A stretch of 33,446 nt of DNA from Campylobacterota bacterium. GTDB lineage: Bacteria; Campylobacterota; Campylobacteria; Campylobacterales; Sulfurovaceae. The notes under the pieces are model-generated. The model ran no database searches and was not told the origin of the DNA. It worked only from the letters and a program-made list of their open reading frames with translations. Numbering within the stretch: position 1 is the first letter of the stretch; the number at the start of each line of letters is the position of its first letter. This document shows, in pieces, positions 6,357 to 27,932 of this stretch. A program made the position numbers and the translations under genes. The stretch lies in contig WGAM01000135.1 of the NCBI GenBank assembly GCA_015494795.1, positions 1 through 33,446 of the forward strand. The letters run 5' to 3'.

Positions 6357-7391
6357 TTATCTAAAGACTCTATTACAATCTTTCTCTATTGCTTCTGGTA
6401 TAGTAGCAATAGTCATAAACTCCTCCATTTTTAAGTTAGGATACATTACAGATATATAATATTTAGGGTCTAATATCATTGCTCTACTATTTTCTATCAA
6501 AACAGGATATGGAAGTAATCCGGCGTTTTTTAATCCAATCTTTTTAGGAAATTTTTTTGTTCTTTTTGATAATTTTACACCAATCAATGTTGAGTCTTTA
6601 TCGAGTGGAAGTATAAAAGCTACTCTCTTTTTATTCTTCTTAGCCTTTTCTAATAGATTATCTCCATTTCCAACCTCTATCATATCTTTATAGTGTGGCA
6701 TACCCTCCATAAATTGATATTTTGGTAGTCCTTGAAATTTAAATTTATCTAATGAGTCTTTTAGTCCTGTAAACTCTTTAGTTATCATATCTAAAAGTTT
6801 TTCTGACTCTTTTTTATTGAAATCATCTTGTAGAAAGGCTTTTGTAATATAGAGTGGATTTGTAATTGCAAAGATTTTATCCTTTTTATCTATAAGAAGT
6901 CTTAGAGTTCCTGCAAAGCCTCTACCATTTTTACTAGCCATCTTTTTTAGAGTATCATTTGTAAATACAATAGATACTAAACTTCTTCTCTTATTGATAT
7001 GATAGACTTTTACAATCTTAAATCCTGCTTTAATAAGTTTTGCTTTAGCATCTTTTGTCTTAATTAAATCACCTATTAAATTAACAGATACTCTACCATG
7101 ATTAATATATCCAACTTTACTTTTATTATTACTCTCTATAGACATTTTAGATATTCTCTCTTCTAATGGAGTATAATTTGGAGGGTATCTTTTTGAAAAT
7201 TTAATTGCACGACTATTCATTATACTATCATTGCTAGATTTTTTAACATGTAATTTAACTACAGATGGGGATTTAATAGGATTGGGAATTATTATATTTA
7301 CATCTCTTATACTACTATTGACTTCATTAGATGATAGATATAGAGGTGATAATATAGGAATAATACTTAACGCTAAGCTTTTTAACTTCAT
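6357..7391 (-). CDS. Uncharacterised exported protein, 344 residues
   Basis: I do not recognise this family with confidence. The N-terminus (MKLKSLALSIIPILSPLYLSS) looks like a signal peptide, so a periplasmic location is likely. The rest is lysine-rich and soluble. A block at about residues 90-185 (GRVSVNLIGDLIKTKDAKAKLIKAG, then ITNPLYITKAFL) and a C-terminal block (PHYKDMIEVGNGD, later RVAFILPLDKDSTLIGVKLS and LPYPVLIENSRAMILDPKYYI) suggest two related alpha/beta modules. The final residues include a single Cys. An AAGGAA site lies five bases before the ATG. It converges with the PAS gene (15-base gap) and lies upstream of the repeat-protein cluster in gene order but reads the same way; an intervening hairpin separates them. 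Confidence 0.75.
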   Translation of the reverse strand: MKLKSLALSIIPILSPLYLSSNEVNSSIRDVNIIIPNPIKSPSVVKLHVKKSSNDSIMNSRAIKFSKRYPPNYTPLEERISKMSIESNNKSKVGYINHGRVSVNLIGDLIKTKDAKAKLIKAGFKIVKVYHINKRRSLVSIVFTNDTLKKMASKNGRGFAGTLRLLIDKKDKIFAITNPLYITKAFLQDDFNKKESEKLLDMITKEFTGLKDSLDKFKFQGLPKYQFMEGMPHYKDMIEVGNGDNLLEKAKKNKKRVAFILPLDKDSTLIGVKLSKRTKKFPKKIGLKNAGLLPYPVLIENSRAMILDPKYYISVMYPNLKMEEFMTIATIPEAIEKDCNRVFR

Positions 7392-7486
7392 TTGACTTCC
7401 TTAAAAATGATTATTATATCAATAATAACACATTTTTATAGAAAATGTAATTTTTGATTATTCTACTTTATTATTTAAAAATATAA

Positions 7487-7510
7487 AGCTACTAAAAGTG
7501 ACTAGTAGCT
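7487..7510 (-). terminator. Terminator of the short repeat-protein gene
   Basis: AGCTACTA / TAGTAGCT with an 8-base loop lies directly after the stop codon. On the minus strand it is followed by TTATATTTTT, the layout of an intrinsic terminator. Confidence 0.7.
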
Positions 7511-7792
7511 CTATTTTATATCATTAGAAATATCTTTAGCAGACTCTTTTCTATCTTTTGAGACTGTTTTCACAGTATCTTTAGTATCTTTAGAGAGCGT
7601 TTTAGTTGTATCTTTTACATCATCTGAAACACTCTTTCTTATATCATTTGCATCATCAGACATATCTTCTACTGTATCTCTAGCATTGTGAGTTACATGT
7701 TTGGCAGCCTCTCTCATATCATGAAACATACTACTAAAGAAATCTGCTGATGAAAATGTGACCATTATTGAAAAAATAACTATCTTTTTCAT
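7511..7792 (-). CDS. Short exported 11-residue-repeat protein (paralogue 3)
   Basis: A 93-residue member of the same family as the next two genes. The ATG at 7790-7792 is chosen because AAAGGA precedes it; a longer reading from 7828 has no such site. A signal peptide (MKKIVIFSIMVTFSSA) is followed by DFFSSMFHDMREAAKH, which aligns with DFSFGDMFKDMKEAAI of the longer paralogues. About five and a half 11-residue units follow, such as SDDVKDTTKTL and SKDTKDTVKTV. The units are more diverged than in the long proteins, and it may represent an older or minimal form. A periplasmic location and helical structure are inferred. Function is unknown. Confidence 0.8.
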   Translation of the reverse strand: MKKIVIFSIMVTFSSADFFSSMFHDMREAAKHVTHNARDTVEDMSDDANDIRKSVSDDVKDTTKTLSKDTKDTVKTVSKDRKESAKDISNDIK

Positions 7793-7887
7793 ATTAATCC
7801 TTTGTCTTGATATATAATATGATAACACTAATTATTCTAAAATATACTTAAAATATATAAGAAATAGTAATAGAGATAGATTATATT

Positions 7888-7922
7888 AATAGATGTAACA
7901 AAGAGTAAATGTTACATCTATT
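7888..7922 (-). terminator. Hairpin downstream of repeat-protein paralogue 2
   Basis: AATAGATGTAACA / TGTTACATCTATT makes a perfect 13-pair stem with a 9-base loop, a few bases past the stop codon at 7936. The tract after it on the minus strand is AT-rich but lacks a clean T-run. Confidence 0.6.
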
Positions 7923-7935
7923 TTAAAAGTAGAAG

Positions 7936-9033
7936 TTATTTTACATCTTTAGTTGCATCATTTGCATCATTTGAGATTGTTTTTGTTGCATCTGTTGTAT
8001 CATTAGATACCTCTTTTACACTATCTCTTGTATCATTAGATATAGTTTTAGTTGAATCATTTACATTATCTGAAACATCTTTAACAGAATCTCTTGTATC
8101 ATTAGATACTGTTTTTACACTGCTATTTAAATCATGAGAAACAGTTTTAATAGAGTCTGTTGTGTCATTAGATATAGTTTTAACAGAATTTCTTGTATCA
8201 TTAGATACAGTCTTAACAGAGTCTTTTGTATCATGAGATATTGTTGTTGCTGTACTATTAATATCATCTGAAACATCTTTTATCGTATCTCTAGTGTCAT
8301 TAGAGACAGTCTTGACAGAATCTTTTGTATCATGAGAAACAGTTTTAATAGAATCTGTTGTGTCATTAGAAACAGTTTTAACAGAGTCTTTTGTATCGTT
8401 AGATACAGTTTTAATAGAGTCTTTTGTATCATGAGAAACAGTTTTAATGGAGTCTGTTGTATCATTAGATACAGTTTTGACAGAGTCTCTTGTATCATTA
8501 GATACTGTTTTTACACTGCTATTTAGGTCATGAGAAACAGTTTTTACAGAATCTCTTGTGTCATTAGATACAGTTTTAACAGAATCTCTTGTATCATTAG
8601 ATACTGTTTTAATAGAGTCAGTAGTATCATGAGATATTGAAACAGCTGAATCTTTCATATCTTTTGATGCAATAGTTGTACTATCTTTAAGGTCTTTAGT
8701 TGTATTACTAATAGAGTCTTTTGTATCTTCAGATATCTCTACAATAGAGTCTCTAGTATCTTTACTAGTTGAAACTTCAGCAGTCTTAAGGTCATCAGAT
8801 ACCTTTACAGCACTATCTTTTGCATCACTACTAACATTTGTTATAGTTCTTTCAGCACTTTTACTTGTCTCAACTGCTCCATCTTTAAGAGAGGCTACAC
8901 TATCTTTTGCATCTTTACTCATGCTAATAGCTGCCTCTTTCATATCTTTAAACATATCCCCAAAGCTAAAGTCAGCATTTACAGTTGTAATCATTCCTGC
9001 TACTACAGCACTTAAAATTATTGTTTTTTTCAT
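7936..9033 (-). CDS. Exported 11-residue-repeat protein, long form (paralogue 2)
   Basis: 365 residues from the ATG at 9031-9033, which has AAAGGAT before it; an upstream in-frame start at 9087 lacks a ribosome site. The signal peptide MKKTIILSAVVAGMITTVNA is followed by DFSFGDMFKDMKEAAISM. The remainder is built from 11-residue units: one copy, an 18-residue (11+7) variation, then 27 continuous units to the C-terminus. The consensus is S-N-D-T-x-D-S-V-K-T-V, with variants such as SHDLNSSVKTV. Positions 4, 8 and 11 are the apolar or small ones (spacing 4-3-4), the pattern of an 11/3 amphipathic helix as in group-3 LEA proteins, synuclein-like or right-handed coiled-coil proteins. There is no Cys, Trp or catalytic motif in the repeats. 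I do not know its function; membrane-surface binding or an elongated periplasmic coil are possibilities. Confidence 0.85.
   Translation of the reverse strand: MKKTIILSAVVAGMITTVNADFSFGDMFKDMKEAAISMSKDAKDSVASLKDGAVETSKSAERTITNVSSDAKDSAVKVSDDLKTAEVSTSKDTRDSIVEISEDTKDSISNTTKDLKDSTTIASKDMKDSAVSISHDTTDSIKTVSNDTRDSVKTVSNDTRDSVKTVSHDLNSSVKTVSNDTRDSVKTVSNDTTDSIKTVSHDTKDSIKTVSNDTKDSVKTVSNDTTDSIKTVSHDTKDSVKTVSNDTRDTIKDVSDDINSTATTISHDTKDSVKTVSNDTRNSVKTISNDTTDSIKTVSHDLNSSVKTVSNDTRDSVKDVSDNVNDSTKTISNDTRDSVKEVSNDTTDATKTISNDANDATKDVK
7939..8832 (-). repeat. 33-base tandem coding repeat, 27 units (paralogue 2)
   Basis: Each 33-base unit encodes one 11-residue repeat. Units from about 8632 leftward are nearly identical (consensus SNDTRDSVKTV); units to the right, nearest the gene's 5' end, are more diverged. 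All units stay in frame, and alternative frames on both strands remain open as a by-product. Confidence 0.9.
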
Positions 9034-9184
9034 TTTTATCCTTTTTGTTAAAGTATTAAATAATATCATATATACTGTTCGAAACATATAAGAAATACTA
9101 ATGATAATAAATTATATAAAATTAATGTAACTATATGTAATGTTTTTTTGAAGAGAGGCTTTGAAATTAAATTTTAAAAAAGAT

Positions 9185-9212
9185 AATAAAGCTATAAGAA
9201 TATAGCTTTATT
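9185..9212 (-). terminator. Terminator of repeat-protein paralogue 1
   Basis: AATAAAGCTATA / TATAGCTTTATT forms a perfect 12-pair stem with a 4-base loop, followed on the minus strand by ATCTTTTTT. This is the best intrinsic terminator in the window. Confidence 0.78.
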
Positions 9213-9233
9213 TAAAAAATAGAAGATAAAAAA

Positions 9234-10331
9234 TTATTTTTTATCTTTTGTTACATCATTTGCATCATTAGAGATAGTTTTTGTTGTATCTGATGCATCA
9301 TTAGATACCTCTTTTACACTATCTCTTGTGTCATTAGATACTGTTTTTGTTGCATCATTTGCATCATCTGAAACATCTTTAATAGAGTCTCTTGTATCAT
9401 TAGATACAGTTTTAACAGAGTCTCTTGTGTCATTAGATACAGTCTTAACAGAGTCTGTTGTGTCATTAGATACAGTTTTAACAGAGTCTCTTGTGTCATT
9501 AGATACAGTCTTAACAGAGTCTTTTGTATCATTAGATACAGTTTTAACAGAGTCTTTTGTATCATTAGATACAGTTTTAACAGAGTCTGTTGTGTCATTA
9601 GATACTGTTTTAGTTGCTTCTGTTGCATCATCTGAAACATCTTTAATAGAGTCTCTTGTATCGTTAGATACAGTTTTTACGGAGTCTTTTGTATCGTTAG
9701 ATACAGTTTTAACAGAATCTCTTGTGTCATTAGAGACAGTCTTAACAGAATCTTTTGTATCGTTAGATACAGTTTTAACAGAATCTCTTGTGTCATTAGA
9801 GACAGTTTTAACAGAATCTGTAGTGTCATTAGAAACAGTTTTAACAGAATCTCTTGTATCATTAGAGACAGTTTTAACAGAATCTCTTGTATCATTAGAT
9901 ACAGTTTTAATAGAGTCAGTAGTATCATGAGATATTGAAACAGCTGAATCTTTCATATCTTTTGATGCAATAGTTGCACTATCCTTAAGGTCTTTAGTTG
10001 TATTTGTGATTGAGTCTTTTGTATCTTCAGATACCTCTACAACAGAATCTCTAGTATCTTTACTTGTTGAAACTTCAGCAGTCTTAAGGTCATCAGATAC
10101 CTTTACAGCACTATCTTTTGCATCACTACTAACATTAGTAATAGTTCTCTCAGCACTTTTACTTGTCTCAACTGCTCCATCTTTAAGAGAAGCTACACTA
10201 TCCTTTGCATCTTTACTCATGCTAATAGCTGCCTCTTTCATATCTTTAAACATATCCCCAAAGCTAAAGTCAGCATTTACAGTTGTAATCATTCCTGCTA
10301 CTACAGCACTTAAAATTATTGTTTTTCTCAT
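9234..10331 (-). CDS. Exported 11-residue-repeat protein, long form (paralogue 1)
   Basis: 365 residues, exactly the length of paralogue 2. It has the same signal peptide (MRKTIILSAVVAGMITTVNA) and a nearly identical first 130 residues. After the 67-residue head, 27 units of 11 residues run to the end. Most read SNDT(R/K/T)DSVKTV, more uniform than in paralogue 2. Every so often a variant unit appears (SDDATEATKTV, SDDANDATKTV), always preceded by a unit ending SIKDV. Each consensus unit has two acidic and one or two basic residues, so the protein is a polyampholyte with little net charge. The ribosome site (AAAGGATAAAAATG) is the same as in paralogue 2. A strong terminator follows, so each copy is its own unit. 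Periplasmic location is inferred; function unknown. Confidence 0.85.
   Translation of the reverse strand: MRKTIILSAVVAGMITTVNADFSFGDMFKDMKEAAISMSKDAKDSVASLKDGAVETSKSAERTITNVSSDAKDSAVKVSDDLKTAEVSTSKDTRDSVVEVSEDTKDSITNTTKDLKDSATIASKDMKDSAVSISHDTTDSIKTVSNDTRDSVKTVSNDTRDSVKTVSNDTTDSVKTVSNDTRDSVKTVSNDTKDSVKTVSNDTRDSVKTVSNDTKDSVKTVSNDTRDSIKDVSDDATEATKTVSNDTTDSVKTVSNDTKDSVKTVSNDTKDSVKTVSNDTRDSVKTVSNDTTDSVKTVSNDTRDSVKTVSNDTRDSIKDVSDDANDATKTVSNDTRDSVKEVSNDASDTTKTISNDANDVTKDKK
9237..10130 (-). repeat. 33-base tandem coding repeat, 27 units (paralogue 1)
   Basis: The same 33-base unit as in the neighbouring paralogue, with the same unit number. Units 7-25 (to the left of about 9932) differ mostly at single codons, pointing to recent unit duplication or gene conversion within the array. 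Confidence 0.9.
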
Positions 10332-10505: not shown

Positions 10506-10916
10506 ATGAAAAGATTACTATTAGTTCCAATTATTGCAACAACTATGAGTTTTGCTAGTGGATATACACAAGCCGATAGAATTTTAGATATGCAAAAAAT
10601 GGCAAAAGCTATGGAGTCAATACAGACAGGATTTTTCTATAATAACCTAGATATAGTAAAAGAGGGGACAAAGGTTCTTAAAGAGACAATCATTAAAGTA
10701 CGGGCGATAGACTCAGAGGTTAATAATAAAGATATATATGAGAAGTGGATAAATAATAATCTTAAGATGACAAATAAGATAAGAAAAAAGATTATTCAAA
10801 AAGCTGAAGATATTGAAGATAGATTTAAATCTGGAGATGCCGTTCAAGCACTACAATCCTATAGTAAAATTACTCAACAGTGTATGAAATGTCATGTTCA
10901 GATAAGAAAATGGTAG
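10506..10916 (+). CDS. Periplasmic cytochrome c'-like protein
   Basis: 136-residue exported haem protein. The signal peptide is MKRLLLVPIIATTMSFASG. The mature part is helical, and a single haem-binding CMKCH lies at residues 126-130, eleven residues from the C-terminus. A mono-haem site at the end of a four-helix bundle is the layout of class II cytochromes (cytochrome c', c-556). These act in electron transfer or in nitric-oxide binding in the periplasm. The axial methionine that separates c-556 from c' cannot be settled by eye. AAAGGATAGATAAAAATG gives the start. Eighteen bases downstream lies an RND-type adaptor gene, so the two are probably one transcript. The strand switches between this gene and the repeat-protein cluster. 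Confidence 0.8.
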   Translation: MKRLLLVPIIATTMSFASGYTQADRILDMQKMAKAMESIQTGFFYNNLDIVKEGTKVLKETIIKVRAIDSEVNNKDIYEKWINNNLKMTNKIRKKIIQKAEDIEDRFKSGDAVQALQSYSKITQQCMKCHVQIRKW

Positions 10917-10934: not shown

Positions 10935-11723
10935 ATGAAAAAAATATTAATTGTATCATTTTTACTCATTCTATCGCTGAGGGCAGATAAAATAACCCTT
11001 ACAGGTACAGTTGTATCAGATGGGCAGAAGATGATAGGTAGTAGATATATGGGTTATATTAAAAAAGTTTTTGTAAAACTTGGTGATAGAGTAAAAAGAG
11101 AAGATGACCTATATGAGATGGAGTCAGCAGAGTTTGATATTATGAAATCACAAGCTGATTTAATGTTGGAGCAGTCAAAAATTGTTGTAGAGTTTTGGAG
11201 AAAAAGATTAGCAAGGATTAATGAAAAAAAAGAGAGATTAAAGCAACGAAAAAAGATACCTATGATGGACTTAGATGATTTAGAGGCTCAAGCTGAAAAT
11301 ATAGAGACTATGTTAGAATCGGCTCAAGTTATGGTTAGACAAGCAGCAATTAAAGCTAAACAGATGGCAAGTATCTATAACTATGTTAAGATGAAAGCCC
11401 CTTCTGATGGTGTTGTTGTTCAAAAGAACATTAAAGTTGGAGATATGGTAATGCCCGGAATGTTAACAATTATGATTGTTGATACTGAAAATTTAGAGAT
11501 TGATGTATCAATTTCAGAGAGTATTATATCTAAAGTGCATGTGGGACAGAGAATTCCTGTAGAGATACCATCTATAAAATTCCATACAATGGGTAGAATT
11601 AAGGCTGTAATACCAGATGCAAATCCAATGACACATAAGATAAAAATTCGTGTATCATTTGATAAGAAAAATAAAAATATATTCCCCGGAATGTATGCTA
11701 AAGTGACACTTCAAGATTTTTAA
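10935..11723 (+). CDS. Periplasmic adaptor (membrane-fusion) protein, RND-efflux type
   Basis: Links an inner-membrane pump to an outer-membrane channel. The signal peptide is MKKILIVSFLLILSLRA. The first half of the lipoyl (barrel-sandwich) domain is GYIKKVFVKLGDRVKREDDLYEMES. A helical hairpin spans about residues 65-145 with an unusual RLARINEKKERLKQRKK basic stretch. The second lipoyl half is MKAPSDGVVVQKNIKVGDMVMPG, followed by a beta-barrel domain with VGQRIPVEIPS and FPGMYAKVTL near the end. At 262 residues it is short; the C-terminal membrane-proximal domain seems to be missing or reduced. A GGAG site precedes the ATG. No RND pump or TolC-like gene lies next to it, so it may serve a remote pump. 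The cytochrome upstream is the only operon partner. Confidence 0.82.
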   Translation: MKKILIVSFLLILSLRADKITLTGTVVSDGQKMIGSRYMGYIKKVFVKLGDRVKREDDLYEMESAEFDIMKSQADLMLEQSKIVVEFWRKRLARINEKKERLKQRKKIPMMDLDDLEAQAENIETMLESAQVMVRQAAIKAKQMASIYNYVKMKAPSDGVVVQKNIKVGDMVMPGMLTIMIVDTENLEIDVSISESIISKVHVGQRIPVEIPSIKFHTMGRIKAVIPDANPMTHKIKIRVSFDKKNKNIFPGMYAKVTLQDF

Positions 11724-14445: not shown

Positions 14446-16413
14446 ATGAAAAAAACATTTGATTACTTATTAAAAAGAATATTCCCACTAGATGTTAGAG
14501 AAGCTTTTATAGAAAAGATATACTACTCTATGCCTAAAATTGCAATGTTAATATTTATACTATCCATAATTTTTTTCTATATATTTCAAGATAAAATTGC
14601 AAATAATCTAGCATTAGTAAGTTGGTTTATATTTATAAATACACTAGTTTTTATCTTTTTATATGACTATCTCTATTACAAACTATTTTATAGAAGAAAG
14701 AGTGAGAAGAGATATAAAAATGCAAAAAGGAAATTGGAGATAAAGCAAAAAAAACTATCTCTACTTCTTAGTCAAGCACCAATTGGTATCTTCTATTATA
14801 ATAAAAATCTAAGAATACTAAATTATAACAGGATATTTTATAAAATATTTGGATTAGAGAGAAATTTAAAAGGTTTTAATTTAAATAATTTAAATGATAA
14901 AAAAGTGGTAGAGATTATGAAAAGTGCTTTAGTTAAAAAGAGAACTGAAAACTATGTTGGCTCTTATAATTTTACTTTTCAAGATAAGGCTATTTGGGTA
15001 GAGTTTAGATGTTCTGCTCTTATTGATGATAATAATAATGTTATTGGAGGAGTTGGAATTTTAGAAGATAAGACAAGAGAGCATGAAGCTTATGAGAAGT
15101 TAAATTATGTATCTCTTCATGACTCTTTAACAGGTCTTCCTAATAGACGATGTTATAAAAATTTTATGCAAAAGTTAGTTGAAAATAAGAGAAATCAAGA
15201 CTACTTCTCTATACTATTTTATATGGATTTAAACCACTTTAAAGAGATTAATGATACTTTTGGACACTCTGTTGGAGATAAACTTCTACTTGAGGTTGCT
15301 AATAGATTTAAATCTTTAGAGATAAAAAATAGCCATTTAAGTCGTTTAGGTGGAGATGAGTTTACTCTAGCAGTCACTTTTGTATCAAAGAGCGAAATTA
15401 AAACTATAGAGAGAGCAAAAGAGATTGCTCAAAAGATAAAAGAGCTATTTAATAGAGTATTTGAGATAGAGGGATTAAATCTATATATGACATCAAGTAT
15501 AGGTATTGTAATTATAGAGCCTAAGACTGATAATATAGATACAATAATTCGTCATGCAGATATGGCAATGTATCAAACTAAACGAGATGGACAGAATAAT
15601 ATAAAATTTTATGACCATACGCTAGATTTAGAGAGGCAAGAGTTAACATCTCTACAACAAGATTTAAATCATTCAATAGAAAAAGATGAGCTTAAGCTAT
15701 ACTATCAGCCAATAGTATCTATAAAAGATGATAAGCTAAATGCTATAGAGGCTCTTATTCGCTGGAATCACCCTACAAAGGGTATAATTATGCCTGATAA
15801 ATTTATACCTATGGCAACAGAGTCTGGACTTATTAATAGAGTAGGGTGGTGGGTAGCAAATGAGGTTTGCAAACAGCTCTCAATATGGAATGAAAAGGGG
15901 TTAATAAATTTTGAATATATAGCCATTAATATAAATGCAAGACAGTTACATGAGATAGATTTTCCAAAACATATCCAAAAATGTATTTTAGATTATAAAG
16001 TTGACCCATCTTTAATTAAATTAGAGGTTACTGAGACTACTCTTATAGATAGTTTTACAAAAACAGAGAAGATTATTAAAGAGTTAAAAAATATAGGAAT
16101 AGAGTGTAATATTGATGATTTTGGAACAGGATACTCATCTCTATCTTATTTAAAAAAACTCTCATTTAAAGTTTTAAAAATAGATAGAGTTTTTGTTAAT
16201 GAACTTTTAATAAATAGTGATAATTTAGAGTTAATAAAGAGTATTATTAAGATAGGTAAACAGTTTAATTATAAGATTATTATAGAGGGGATTGAAACTA
16301 TAGCACAGAAGAGAAAAATTTTAGAGATTGATAGTGATGTCTCATATCAAGGATTTTTATGTAGCAGGGCAATCCCTGCTAACGAGTTTGAGGAGAAATT
16401 TTTAATAAATTAA
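14446..16413 (+). CDS. Membrane PAS-GGDEF-EAL protein (cyclic-di-GMP turnover)
   Basis: Inner-membrane signalling protein with both diguanylate cyclase and phosphodiesterase domains. Counting from the ATG at 14446 (655 residues): two membrane helices at about 31-47 and 55-78, a short coiled coil, a PAS domain (about 105-215), the GGDEF domain with intact RLGGDEF (300-306) and the EAL domain with EALIRW (435-440). IDDFGTGYSSLSYL, KIDRVF and EGIET, which supply metal and catalytic residues, are also intact. The RxxD inhibitory site five residues before GGDEF is absent (IKNS instead). Both domains may therefore be active. Alternative in-frame ATGs at 14404 and 14437 cannot be excluded, since none has a Shine-Dalgarno. 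The end overlaps the convergent RNase T2 gene by four bases. Confidence 0.93.
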   Translation: MKKTFDYLLKRIFPLDVREAFIEKIYYSMPKIAMLIFILSIIFFYIFQDKIANNLALVSWFIFINTLVFIFLYDYLYYKLFYRRKSEKRYKNAKRKLEIKQKKLSLLLSQAPIGIFYYNKNLRILNYNRIFYKIFGLERNLKGFNLNNLNDKKVVEIMKSALVKKRTENYVGSYNFTFQDKAIWVEFRCSALIDDNNNVIGGVGILEDKTREHEAYEKLNYVSLHDSLTGLPNRRCYKNFMQKLVENKRNQDYFSILFYMDLNHFKEINDTFGHSVGDKLLLEVANRFKSLEIKNSHLSRLGGDEFTLAVTFVSKSEIKTIERAKEIAQKIKELFNRVFEIEGLNLYMTSSIGIVIIEPKTDNIDTIIRHADMAMYQTKRDGQNNIKFYDHTLDLERQELTSLQQDLNHSIEKDELKLYYQPIVSIKDDKLNAIEALIRWNHPTKGIIMPDKFIPMATESGLINRVGWWVANEVCKQLSIWNEKGLINFEYIAININARQLHEIDFPKHIQKCILDYKVDPSLIKLEVTETTLIDSFTKTEKIIKELKNIGIECNIDDFGTGYSSLSYLKKLSFKVLKIDRVFVNELLINSDNLELIKSIIKIGKQFNYKIIIEGIETIAQKRKILEIDSDVSYQGFLCSRAIPANEFEEKFLIN

Positions 16414-17330
16414 TATCCTACCTCATCAATTTTTCCTTTATAACATCTACTCTTAACTTTTCCTCCACTCTTAAGAAGCTCTTTTAAGTTATTACTACCA
16501 CTTCCAATATATATCCATAGTTCAGTAATTAAACCCTTCTGACATACTAAGTTAACATGCTCTCCTGCACCTTTTCCAAACTCTTTATCAAAAACACCTC
16601 TTATATCTCTCTGCTTTACAACTCTACCCATATTCTTTACAAAAAACTCTCTAACCTTTGAGTTATTTATCTCTTTTAGTAGCTTTATTGCATCTTTATA
16701 GTACTCATCAGCAGTAGTTCCATAACATGTTCCATGTTTTATCCACTCATGAAGATGTAGATTTGAGCTATATCCACTCATATACTTTTTTAACTCATCT
16801 CTTGTCTCTTTAGATAAATCTAATTTAGGTAGTCTATTCCACTGCTTATTCTTATCCATACCAACCTCTTTTTTACCAACATTGCAGTATAGATTATTTC
16901 TAGGTTGTGGCCATAATCCATGAAGTACAAAAGAAGTTGTTGCAAAATCTCCTTTTCTCATAGCTTTACACTCTTTTTTATATTGGTGTGTTTGACAAAA
17001 AGCATTCTGCCAAGAGATGGCAAGTAGGTTCTGTTTAGCTCTTTTTGAAATACTCTTTTTATCTTTCGATTTTTTATCTGAAAAACAGCTCTTATCTACC
17101 CATCTTTGAGCAATCTTTTCACCCTTAATTAGGGTTAATATCTGCCCTTTTCTCTGCTCTATAACTCTATATTTTTTACCCTTTTGTAATTTAATATTGT
17201 TACTATTTTTTGTATGCTTCATATTATTATATGCAAAACATGACTCTTGTGCCTCTTTATATATTACCTCTTTAGAGATTGCCATAAGTGGCAATAGAAG
17301 TATCATTAGCGATAGGATTATCTTTCTCAT
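16410..17330 (-). CDS. Exported ribonuclease T2 family protein
   Basis: Secreted or periplasmic endoribonuclease that cleaves RNA through a 2',3'-cyclic phosphate. The signal peptide is MRKIILSLMILLLPLMAIS. Residues about 20-85 form an SH3-like region (LQKGKKYRVIEQRKGQILTLI, then a W-V-D-K-S-C-F end). The catalytic domain follows with ISWQNAFCQ, the first active-site block FVLHGLWPQ and the second HLHEWIKHGTC, which provide the histidines, glutamate and lysine. Cysteines are consistent with disulfides of the periplasm. It is 306 residues, longer than the about 240-residue minimal enzyme because of the N-terminal module. AAAGG precedes the ATG. It could scavenge RNA as a nutrient source. Its end overlaps the GGDEF-EAL gene by four bases. 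Confidence 0.9.
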   Translation of the reverse strand: MRKIILSLMILLLPLMAISKEVIYKEAQESCFAYNNMKHTKNSNNIKLQKGKKYRVIEQRKGQILTLIKGEKIAQRWVDKSCFSDKKSKDKKSISKRAKQNLLAISWQNAFCQTHQYKKECKAMRKGDFATTSFVLHGLWPQPRNNLYCNVGKKEVGMDKNKQWNRLPKLDLSKETRDELKKYMSGYSSNLHLHEWIKHGTCYGTTADEYYKDAIKLLKEINNSKVREFFVKNMGRVVKQRDIRGVFDKEFGKGAGEHVNLVCQKGLITELWIYIGSGSNNLKELLKSGGKVKSRCYKGKIDEVGY

Positions 17331-27194: not shown

Positions 27195-27932
27195 ATGAGA
27201 TTAAGAACTAAAGAGCTAGAGGCTATTATTATTAGTTTTAGAGAGGTTTTTACAAGTGGTAAAATATATCTCTTTGGTTCAAGAGTAGATGATACTAAAA
27301 GAGGTGGAGATATTGACCTATTTATATTAAGTAGAGAGGCGAATTTAGAAAAAAAGATAGATTTTTTAGGAAAACTACAAGATAGAATAGGAGAGCAGAA
27401 GATAGATATAGTTATTTCAAAAGATAAAAATAGATTAATAGAAGAAGAAGCTTTAAAAAAAGGGATAGTTTTGAGTTATAAAAATATAAAAATAGAGAAG
27501 TATCTCAATGAGTGTAGAAAACATAAACTTAGAATTGAAAAATCTTATATGAGAGTAAAGGATATATTTCCACTATCTGCACCACGATATGAGAGATTGA
27601 GTGATGATGAGATAGGAGCAATAGACCAGTATCTCTTTAGATTTGCTAAACTCCAAGATACATTAGGAACAAAACTATTTAAATTGGTTGTCTCTGAATA
27701 TGTAGAAGATATTACTCATCTTACCTTTTTAGATATATTAAATCAGTTAGAGAGAGTTGATATTTTAGATGTTAATATATGGAGAAAGTTAAGAGATATA
27801 AGAAATAATATATCTCATCAATATGATGATGAGGCTGAAGAGATGAGTGAAGCACTAAATACTATTTTTGCATACAAAGATGAGTTATTAAGAGTTTTTG
27901 AAAATATAGAGAATTTCTATAAAGATAGATAG
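27195..27932 (+). CDS. Fused MNT nucleotidyltransferase - HEPN protein (single-chain toxin-antitoxin-like)
   Basis: 245 residues with two domains. Residues about 1-100 are a minimal nucleotidyltransferase: LFGSR at 26-30, D39-I-D41 as the metal pair, and a third acid at D71 (KIDIVI). Residues about 105-240 are an all-helical HEPN domain with RFAKLQDTLGTKLF at 149-162 and RNNISHQY at 203-210, an exact R-x4-H-x-Y motif. In two-gene MNT/HEPN toxin-antitoxin pairs the R and H form the RNase site and the Y is AMPylated by the MNT antitoxin. Here both parts sit on one chain. The gene starts four bases after cbiH and is probably co-transcribed with the B12 genes. Whether it is active is not known. 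Confidence 0.82.
   Translation: MRLRTKELEAIIISFREVFTSGKIYLFGSRVDDTKRGGDIDLFILSREANLEKKIDFLGKLQDRIGEQKIDIVISKDKNRLIEEEALKKGIVLSYKNIKIEKYLNECRKHKLRIEKSYMRVKDIFPLSAPRYERLSDDEIGAIDQYLFRFAKLQDTLGTKLFKLVVSEYVEDITHLTFLDILNQLERVDILDVNIWRKLRDIRNNISHQYDDEAEEMSEALNTIFAYKDELLRVFENIENFYKDR

Follow-up and report, generated by a model that had tools for sequence, protein, structure and literature searches.

A family of predicted exported 11-residue-repeat proteins linked to a haem protein and an RND-type adaptor in Campylobacterota

What is the role of three adjacent genes in a Sulfurovaceae genome whose products consist of a signal peptide, a short head and a long series of 11-residue units? The window, by which we mean the whole analysed stretch of 33,446 nucleotides (contig WGAM01000135.1 of GenBank assembly GCA_015494795.1), was described in an initial annotation as carrying these genes on its minus strand. 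The open reading frames confirm the three genes and their coordinates, and signal peptide, head and repeats are present. The genes, here called A, B and S, and their conserved neighbours are as follows.

9234..10331, minus strand: gene A, a predicted exported 11-residue-repeat protein of 365 aa (ORF and homologues)
10272..10331, minus strand: signal peptide of A, MRKTIILSAVVAGMITTVNA (seen in the sequence, with an Ala at -1 that all 17 aligned homologues share)
10224..10271, minus strand: conserved head of A, DFSFGDMFKDMKEAAI (invariant M, F, D, M and K columns)
9240..9932, minus strand: 21 uninterrupted 11-residue units of A (Tandem Repeats Finder and 11-mer layout)
9188..9209, minus strand: terminator-like A+T-rich hairpin, then a T-rich tract, after A (read from sequence)
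7936..9033, minus strand: gene B, paralogue of A, 365 aa (ORF, 86% identity to A)
7942..8634, minus strand: 21 uninterrupted 11-residue units of B (Tandem Repeats Finder and 11-mer layout)
7891..7919, minus strand: terminator-like hairpin after B (read from sequence)
7511..7792, minus strand: gene S, short paralogue with the same head, 93 aa (ORF)
7483..7514, minus strand: terminator-like hairpin with T-rich tail after S
6357..7391, minus strand: c3, predicted exported protein of 344 aa, first folded domain with a predicted DUF302 fold
10506..10916, plus strand: c1, predicted exported CxxCH (c-type haem) protein of 136 aa, weakly cytochrome c'-like
10935..11723, plus strand: MFP2, RND/HlyD-type periplasmic adaptor, second gene of the divergent pair

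The start of B was placed at the ATG at 9033, which gives a protein equal in length to A (the longest ORF would give 383 aa), and that of S at the ATG at 7792. The head sequence common to A, B and S is DFSFGDMFKDMKEAA, and their consensus unit is SNDTxDSVKTV. A shared head had been proposed with a single spacing; the head is present in all three proteins, but the spacing is D-F-x(3,4)-M-F-x-D-M-(K/R)-E-A-A, with four residues in A and B and three in S. The three aromatic residues of A are all within the head. A and B hold a single 11-residue register from about residue 35 to the C-terminal end. The view that little follows the head except consensus units holds for residues 134-364, which form 21 clean 11-mers without interruption, but the first 100 or so mature residues are conserved and degenerate, with residues 35-133 forming degenerate units in the unchanged register. 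S contains about five degenerate units, and has a close homologue at locus L031. Tandem Repeats Finder detects the A and B arrays independently, and lag-11 identity falls from 0.63 in A to 0.52 in B and 0.40 in S.

The signal peptides of A, B and S, read by eye, are of the basic-hydrophobic-AxA type with AxA or VxA sites, the Ala at -1 is invariant in 17 aligned homologues, and the three proteins contain no Cys and no lipobox cysteine. Read in this way across paralogues and homologues, they predict Sec export, as originally suggested.

The hydrophobicity of A peaks at 98.4 degrees, 26.7 s.d. above composition-preserving shuffles. In 55 of 55 dereplicated homologues the peak lies at 98.2-98.8 degrees, the value of an 11/3 helix, which upholds the 4-3-4 apolar stripe and 11/3 period first noted in the window. 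The third harmonic of the 11-residue period is the strongest in 115 of 115 members, and the power in the A repeats is 531 at 98.2 degrees against 49 at 163.6 degrees, the beta value. Measured against the NVS motif of the head, the phase has a resultant length of 0.979 (850 windows), its coherence stays above 0.97 up to the far end, and the register runs without slip across up to about 480 residues. As the phase is kept along the repeats, insertions come in whole units. The units also carry charged stripes on their sides, which the initial annotation had not described. Across the family, Asp occupies unit position 3 in 76% and position 6 in 74% of cases, Lys position 9 in 56%, Lys or Arg position 5 in 52%, and Val or Ile position 11 in 69%. 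The apolar stripe is formed by positions 4, 8 and 11, the basic stripe by 5 and 9, and the acidic stripe by 3 and 6. The basic strip lies at +133 degrees from the apolar face (54 of 55 members fall within +60 to +150 degrees) and the acidic strip at 221 degrees (55 of 55 members); the mature chain is acidic overall, with a net charge of -19. This three-stripe layout suggests side-by-side self-association.

A and B are under purifying selection. Between them dN/dS is 0.10 in the head and 0.26 in the repeats, and the unit-to-unit pN/pS is 0.36-0.45, values which indicate that the protein sequence of the unit is under selection and is not a mere product of DNA slippage.

An AlphaFold2 model of A (39 sequences) has a pLDDT of 41.9 and gives no usable model of the repeats. 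It places helix in the head region and low-confidence strands in part of the repeats, so that the model neither shows nor excludes a fold. Solved structures searched by sequence gave no match to the repeat proteins. On average the A repeats have a poor helix propensity (0.54 kcal/mol per residue), and other members have somewhat better values (0.44-0.50 kcal/mol per residue); by analogy with synucleins, the helix may form on binding or packing. A single helix of all 345 mature residues would measure about 52 nm, at 0.15 nm per residue. This is too long to span the periplasm, and the helix would therefore lie along a surface, bundle or fold back. Taken together, export and 11/3 helicity are highly probable.

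Profile searches of Pfam and NCBIfam returned no library model that fits the repeat family, and in the literature on hendecads, 11-mers and sulphur-globule proteins we found no description of the family or of its neighbouring module. The synuclein model (PF01387) scores 25.6 with A, against a cut-off of 23.3, and 16.9 with B, and matches neither S nor any of five homologues scanned. The apolipophorin-III model (PF07464) scores 39.6 with B, against a cut-off of 36.3, 26.7 with A, 14.9 with S and 26.4 with the homologue at L063. In each case the other paralogue and the homologues fail; we read these marginal matches as reflecting composition and periodicity, and the repeat proteins may work in a similar manner. 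Synucleins share with the repeat family 11-residue units, 11/3 periodicity, a Lys/Thr/Val-rich composition and poor intrinsic helix propensity, but they are eukaryotic and cytosolic and lack the head, the export and the acidic and basic side stripes. Apolipophorin-III and apolipoproteins A1/A4/E are exported amphipathic 11-mer helices, as the repeat proteins would be, but do not have the head in common with them. For the apolipoprotein A1/A4/E model (PF01442) the best score is 53.4 (L085), with 29.4 for A and 37.0 for B, all under the cut-off of 90. LEA group 3 proteins and perilipins have an 11-residue amphipathic period; the repeat family differs from both in being exported and linked to a pump module, it matches no Pfam model of either group, and LEA models are absent among its matches down to E = 1. 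YtxH-like proteins (PF12732) show a weak amphipathic-helix similarity, scoring 33.0 against a cut-off of 37.5. The best NCBIfam match is Ag473 of Neisseria (NF047840), at 37.3 bits against a cut-off of 100. Like the repeat family, Ag473 is exported, repetitive, of low complexity and poor in aromatic residues, and it comes from a Gram-negative bacterium, but this meningococcal lipoprotein has 7-residue repeats (PMC3402496) and is lipid-anchored, whereas the proteins in the window are without Cys. The original statement that no exported bacterial family of this kind is known holds in that no model fits, and is slightly too strong in view of Ag473.

Of 60 related genomes, 38 contain homologues of the repeat proteins. 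Scanning named genomes gave 80 loci, each either labelled as Campylobacterota or consistent with that phylum, in Sulfurovum, Sulfurimonas, Nitratifractor and MAGs labelled Sulfurospirillum, Helicobacteraceae or Campylobacteraceae. A profile of the head matches 18 of 397 good Campylobacterota genomes, in the window's family and three other families. The distribution is patchy and clade-specific. Most members have about 14 to 43 units, and several genomes carry two to four tandem copies. At L027 and L039 neighbouring proteins resemble the family only in the signal and a head-like start, and end in a different tail, so the head looks like a module.

The genes around the repeat genes form a conserved module, which goes beyond what was initially annotated. 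c1 and MFP2 lie upstream and are divergently transcribed, and c3 lies downstream. The CxxCH motif of c1 is invariant, and MFP2 matches HlyD_D23 at 102 bits and RND_mfp at 99 bits (cut-off 94.9). c3 is conserved at 40-84% next to repeat genes. The AlphaFold2 model of c3 has a pLDDT of 86.7, and its top three VIA matches are DUF302-type: 1j3m (Z 11.0; rmsd 2.4 over 106 residues in VIA-align), 1q9u (Z 10.0) and 7tj1 (Z 9.6), the last of which is titled CrcB and is taken as DUF302-type from its identical placing; the next VIA row has Z 7.0. The model thus points to a DUF302 fold for the first folded domain of c3, and the comparison barely covered the C-terminal half. Foldseek with the c3 model gave no significant match, and the window's c3 sequence matched no Pfam model, PF03625 included. 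A longer homologue at L026 matches PF03625 in its N-terminal part (31.8, cut-off 23), and the longer homologues have N-terminal DUF302-like regions ahead of the conserved C-terminal part. DUF302 has been noted beside sox genes of sulphur oxidisers (PMC5037610).

Of 113 repeat-protein loci, 92 have the adaptor family, 87 have c1 and 78 have c3; this total counts some contigs twice, under two ids, and contig ends truncate many of the loci. At many loci (L091, L097, L144, L146 and others) a two-ORF RND pump, an adaptor and TolC adjoin, and at L047 the repeat genes, c3, the adaptor, a beta-propeller protein and both pump halves are consecutive on the same strand. Some loci also carry an OMPP1/FadL protein. 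Two other neighbours were dropped: d6 is elongation factor P by sequence, and d16 is an antisense ORF overlying c1.

Co-inheritance was assessed in the 397 good genomes of the phylum, 18 with the repeat-protein head and 379 without. All 18 genomes with the repeat protein have a close c1 (E <1e-39), as does 1 of the 379 others (Fisher 3e-30); the Fisher values and genome counts ignore shared ancestry and are descriptive. c1 is directly adjacent to a repeat gene in 16 of these 18 genomes and on a different contig in the other two; in the exception, G422, c1 stands alone and no repeat gene adjoins it. A close c3 (E <1e-100) is present in 15 of 18 genomes against 1 of 379. The common RND pump was rejected as a specific partner, being found in 163 of the 397 genomes. 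At least two RND pump copies are found in 13 of 18 repeat-protein genomes against 3 of 145 other pump-bearing genomes.

In a tree of selected RND copies, from which the second copies of G405 and G430 (genomes with no repeat protein) were left out, the linked copies of Sulfurimonas and relatives fall in one clade of 15 rows with 100/100 support. This clade takes in most second copies, including the unlinked ones found in G404 and in four genomes from the window's family; the second copy of G328 lies outside it on a very long branch. In G264 and G431, two genomes from the window's family, it is the common pump that adjoins the repeat genes. The window's genome has the common pump only, unlinked, in a complete TolC-adaptor-pump operon on another contig (G000:C5), so that an extra pump cannot be an obligatory partner. 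It is the paralogous RND clade, not the common pump, that goes with the repeat protein, and this clade is not found in the window's genome. Co-inheritance with the haem protein, and often with an extra pump, makes the repeat proteins look like part of an undescribed envelope system.

We propose that A, B and S are exported 11-mer amphipathic helices with a docking head, which form a side-by-side coat on a hydrophobic surface in the service of the RND/haem/DUF302 module; we give this reading a probability of about 0.4. Cleavage of the signal peptide would expose an N-terminal aromatic/Met head (FSFGDMFKDM), which may dock on the membrane or on a partner. Behind it the repeats, about 14 to 43 units in most members, would make up one unbroken amphipathic alpha-helix of the 11/3 type. 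The chain would be poorly ordered alone and become helical once helices pack side by side, with the basic flank of one helix against the acidic flank of the next. The apolar stripe would be buried on lipid or another hydrophobic surface, giving a coat that would work with the c1 haem protein and the RND-type adaptor of the divergent transcript and with the DUF302-fold c3, joined by the extra RND pump in most genomes with the family. The failure of AlphaFold2 to model the repeats, part of which it drew as low-confidence strands, the poor helix propensity of A and a pump tie that is not obligatory count against a coat. The net charge of -19 also speaks against attachment to an anionic membrane by simple electrostatics. 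A further reading, of an undescribed Campylobacterota envelope machine that joins an RND pump and its dedicated adaptor to a haem protein, a DUF302 protein and an exported apolipoprotein-like helix coating or carrying hydrophobic cargo between the membranes, is unlikely.

In a lone helix on a membrane surface, both flanks are usually basic. In the repeat proteins basic residues line one flank and acidic residues the other, and the net charge is -19; this favours helix-helix packing and makes a parallel right-handed (hendecad) coiled-coil bundle or filament the strongest rival. Such a bundle would be a rod or spacer of the envelope and not a membrane coat. The unbroken 11-residue hydrophobic period expected of right-handed hendecad coiled coils is found here, over up to about 480 residues, and the opposite charges flanking the apolar stripe (positions 3 and 5) fit inter-helix salt bridges in a parallel bundle. 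The stripe, however, is made of Val, Thr and Ala with little Leu, which would give a weak core, and three of 11 positions are apolar, compared with about four in classical hendecads. We regard the bundle as possible but less likely than the coat. A soluble, disordered, LEA-like protectant, which would become helical on drying, salt or heat stress and shield envelope components, would suit the low-complexity, Cys-free, highly polar 11-mers, the poor helix propensity and the uninformative AlphaFold2 model, as well as the several paralogues, each with a terminator-like hairpin. It leaves the linkage and co-inheritance with the haem protein, adaptor and RND pump unexplained and lacks a Pfam LEA match, and is quite unlikely.

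Less probable again is an apolipoprotein-like periplasmic carrier of a hydrophobic pump substrate such as lipid, hydrocarbon or zero-valent sulphur. The apolipoprotein and apolipophorin-III profile resemblance and the linkage to RND pump, TolC and in some loci OMPP1/FadL are consistent with it. Many hosts live on sulphur, and sulphur particles in Sulfurovum-rich biofilms are reported to be organically stabilised (PMC8377587). Yet the profile scores are mostly below the curated cut-offs, several homologues give no match, FadL is present in few loci only, and sulphur-metabolism genes are not consistent neighbours. A transcriptome of S. indicum in which HlyD and TolC genes are reported as induced (PMC10045233), and whose text has no DUF or YtxH entry, was dropped as support for a link to sulphur, since the induced genes could not be tied to those of the module. 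Finally, folding of the repeats as a small beta-solenoid would agree with the short AlphaFold2 strands 10-12 residues apart (pLDDT under 50) and with a beta-branched unit rich in Asn, Asp, Ser and Thr. It is very improbable, given that the beta harmonic has about a tenth of the alpha power in A, that alpha is dominant in all members and that Ala-rich homologues such as that at L038 look helical.

The long 11/3 amphipathic repeat proteins known so far are mainly stress protectants and lipid-surface proteins of eukaryotes. A bacterial family that is exported and keeps an exact register over hundreds of residues would offer a simple natural system for testing how 11-mer helices assemble. The tie to a haem protein and an RND subclade would open a way into an envelope process of the sulphur-oxidising Campylobacterota that live at vents and in sulphidic waters.

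The head that directly follows the signal peptide in the repeat proteins also occurs, in similar form, in exported proteins of other loci. Three short proteins begin with a repeat-protein signal and a head-like start, their tail is rich in Asn, Ser and Thr in place of the 11-residue units, and their genes lie immediately behind the repeat gene:

L039:6044-6310, short protein
L041:6976-7242, short protein
L053:1842-2123, short protein

Two further exported proteins with a related head are encoded downstream of c3 (the exported DUF302-fold protein), with a tail of repeats rich in Glu, Lys, Thr and Ala (EEATEKTEAQP):

L027:9713-10168
L029:9844-10353

In some loci the gene behind c3 encodes an outer-membrane protein of the OMPP1/FadL family (L082:4414-5658, L066, L069).

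At L042 (3910-8275, G036:C1) the repeat gene lies at the centre of a perfect inverted duplication of 4.4 kb. The head and the haem-protein gene are each present twice and, together with flanking genes, face their counterparts in the other arm; the two repeat genes both break off at the midpoint. This is either a true palindrome or an assembly artefact.

The window also contains the following genes:

27195-27932, plus strand, single ORF with an MNT-type nucleotidyltransferase domain and a possibly HEPN-like C-terminal part
16410-17330, minus strand, exported protein of the RNase T2 family that has an additional N-terminal stretch

The first adjoins cobalamin genes. Its C-terminal part has a sub-threshold likeness to the nucleotidyltransferase substrate-binding (HEPN-like) family and the ORF contains an RNNISH motif; it looks like an MNT-HEPN pair fused into one protein.

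In 15 of the 55 dereplicated homologues, roughly a quarter, the chain ends at its C-terminus in a DDYKDYLKLK-like motif, possibly a binding tag; L085, L102 and L132 are examples, and the repeat proteins of the window lack it.
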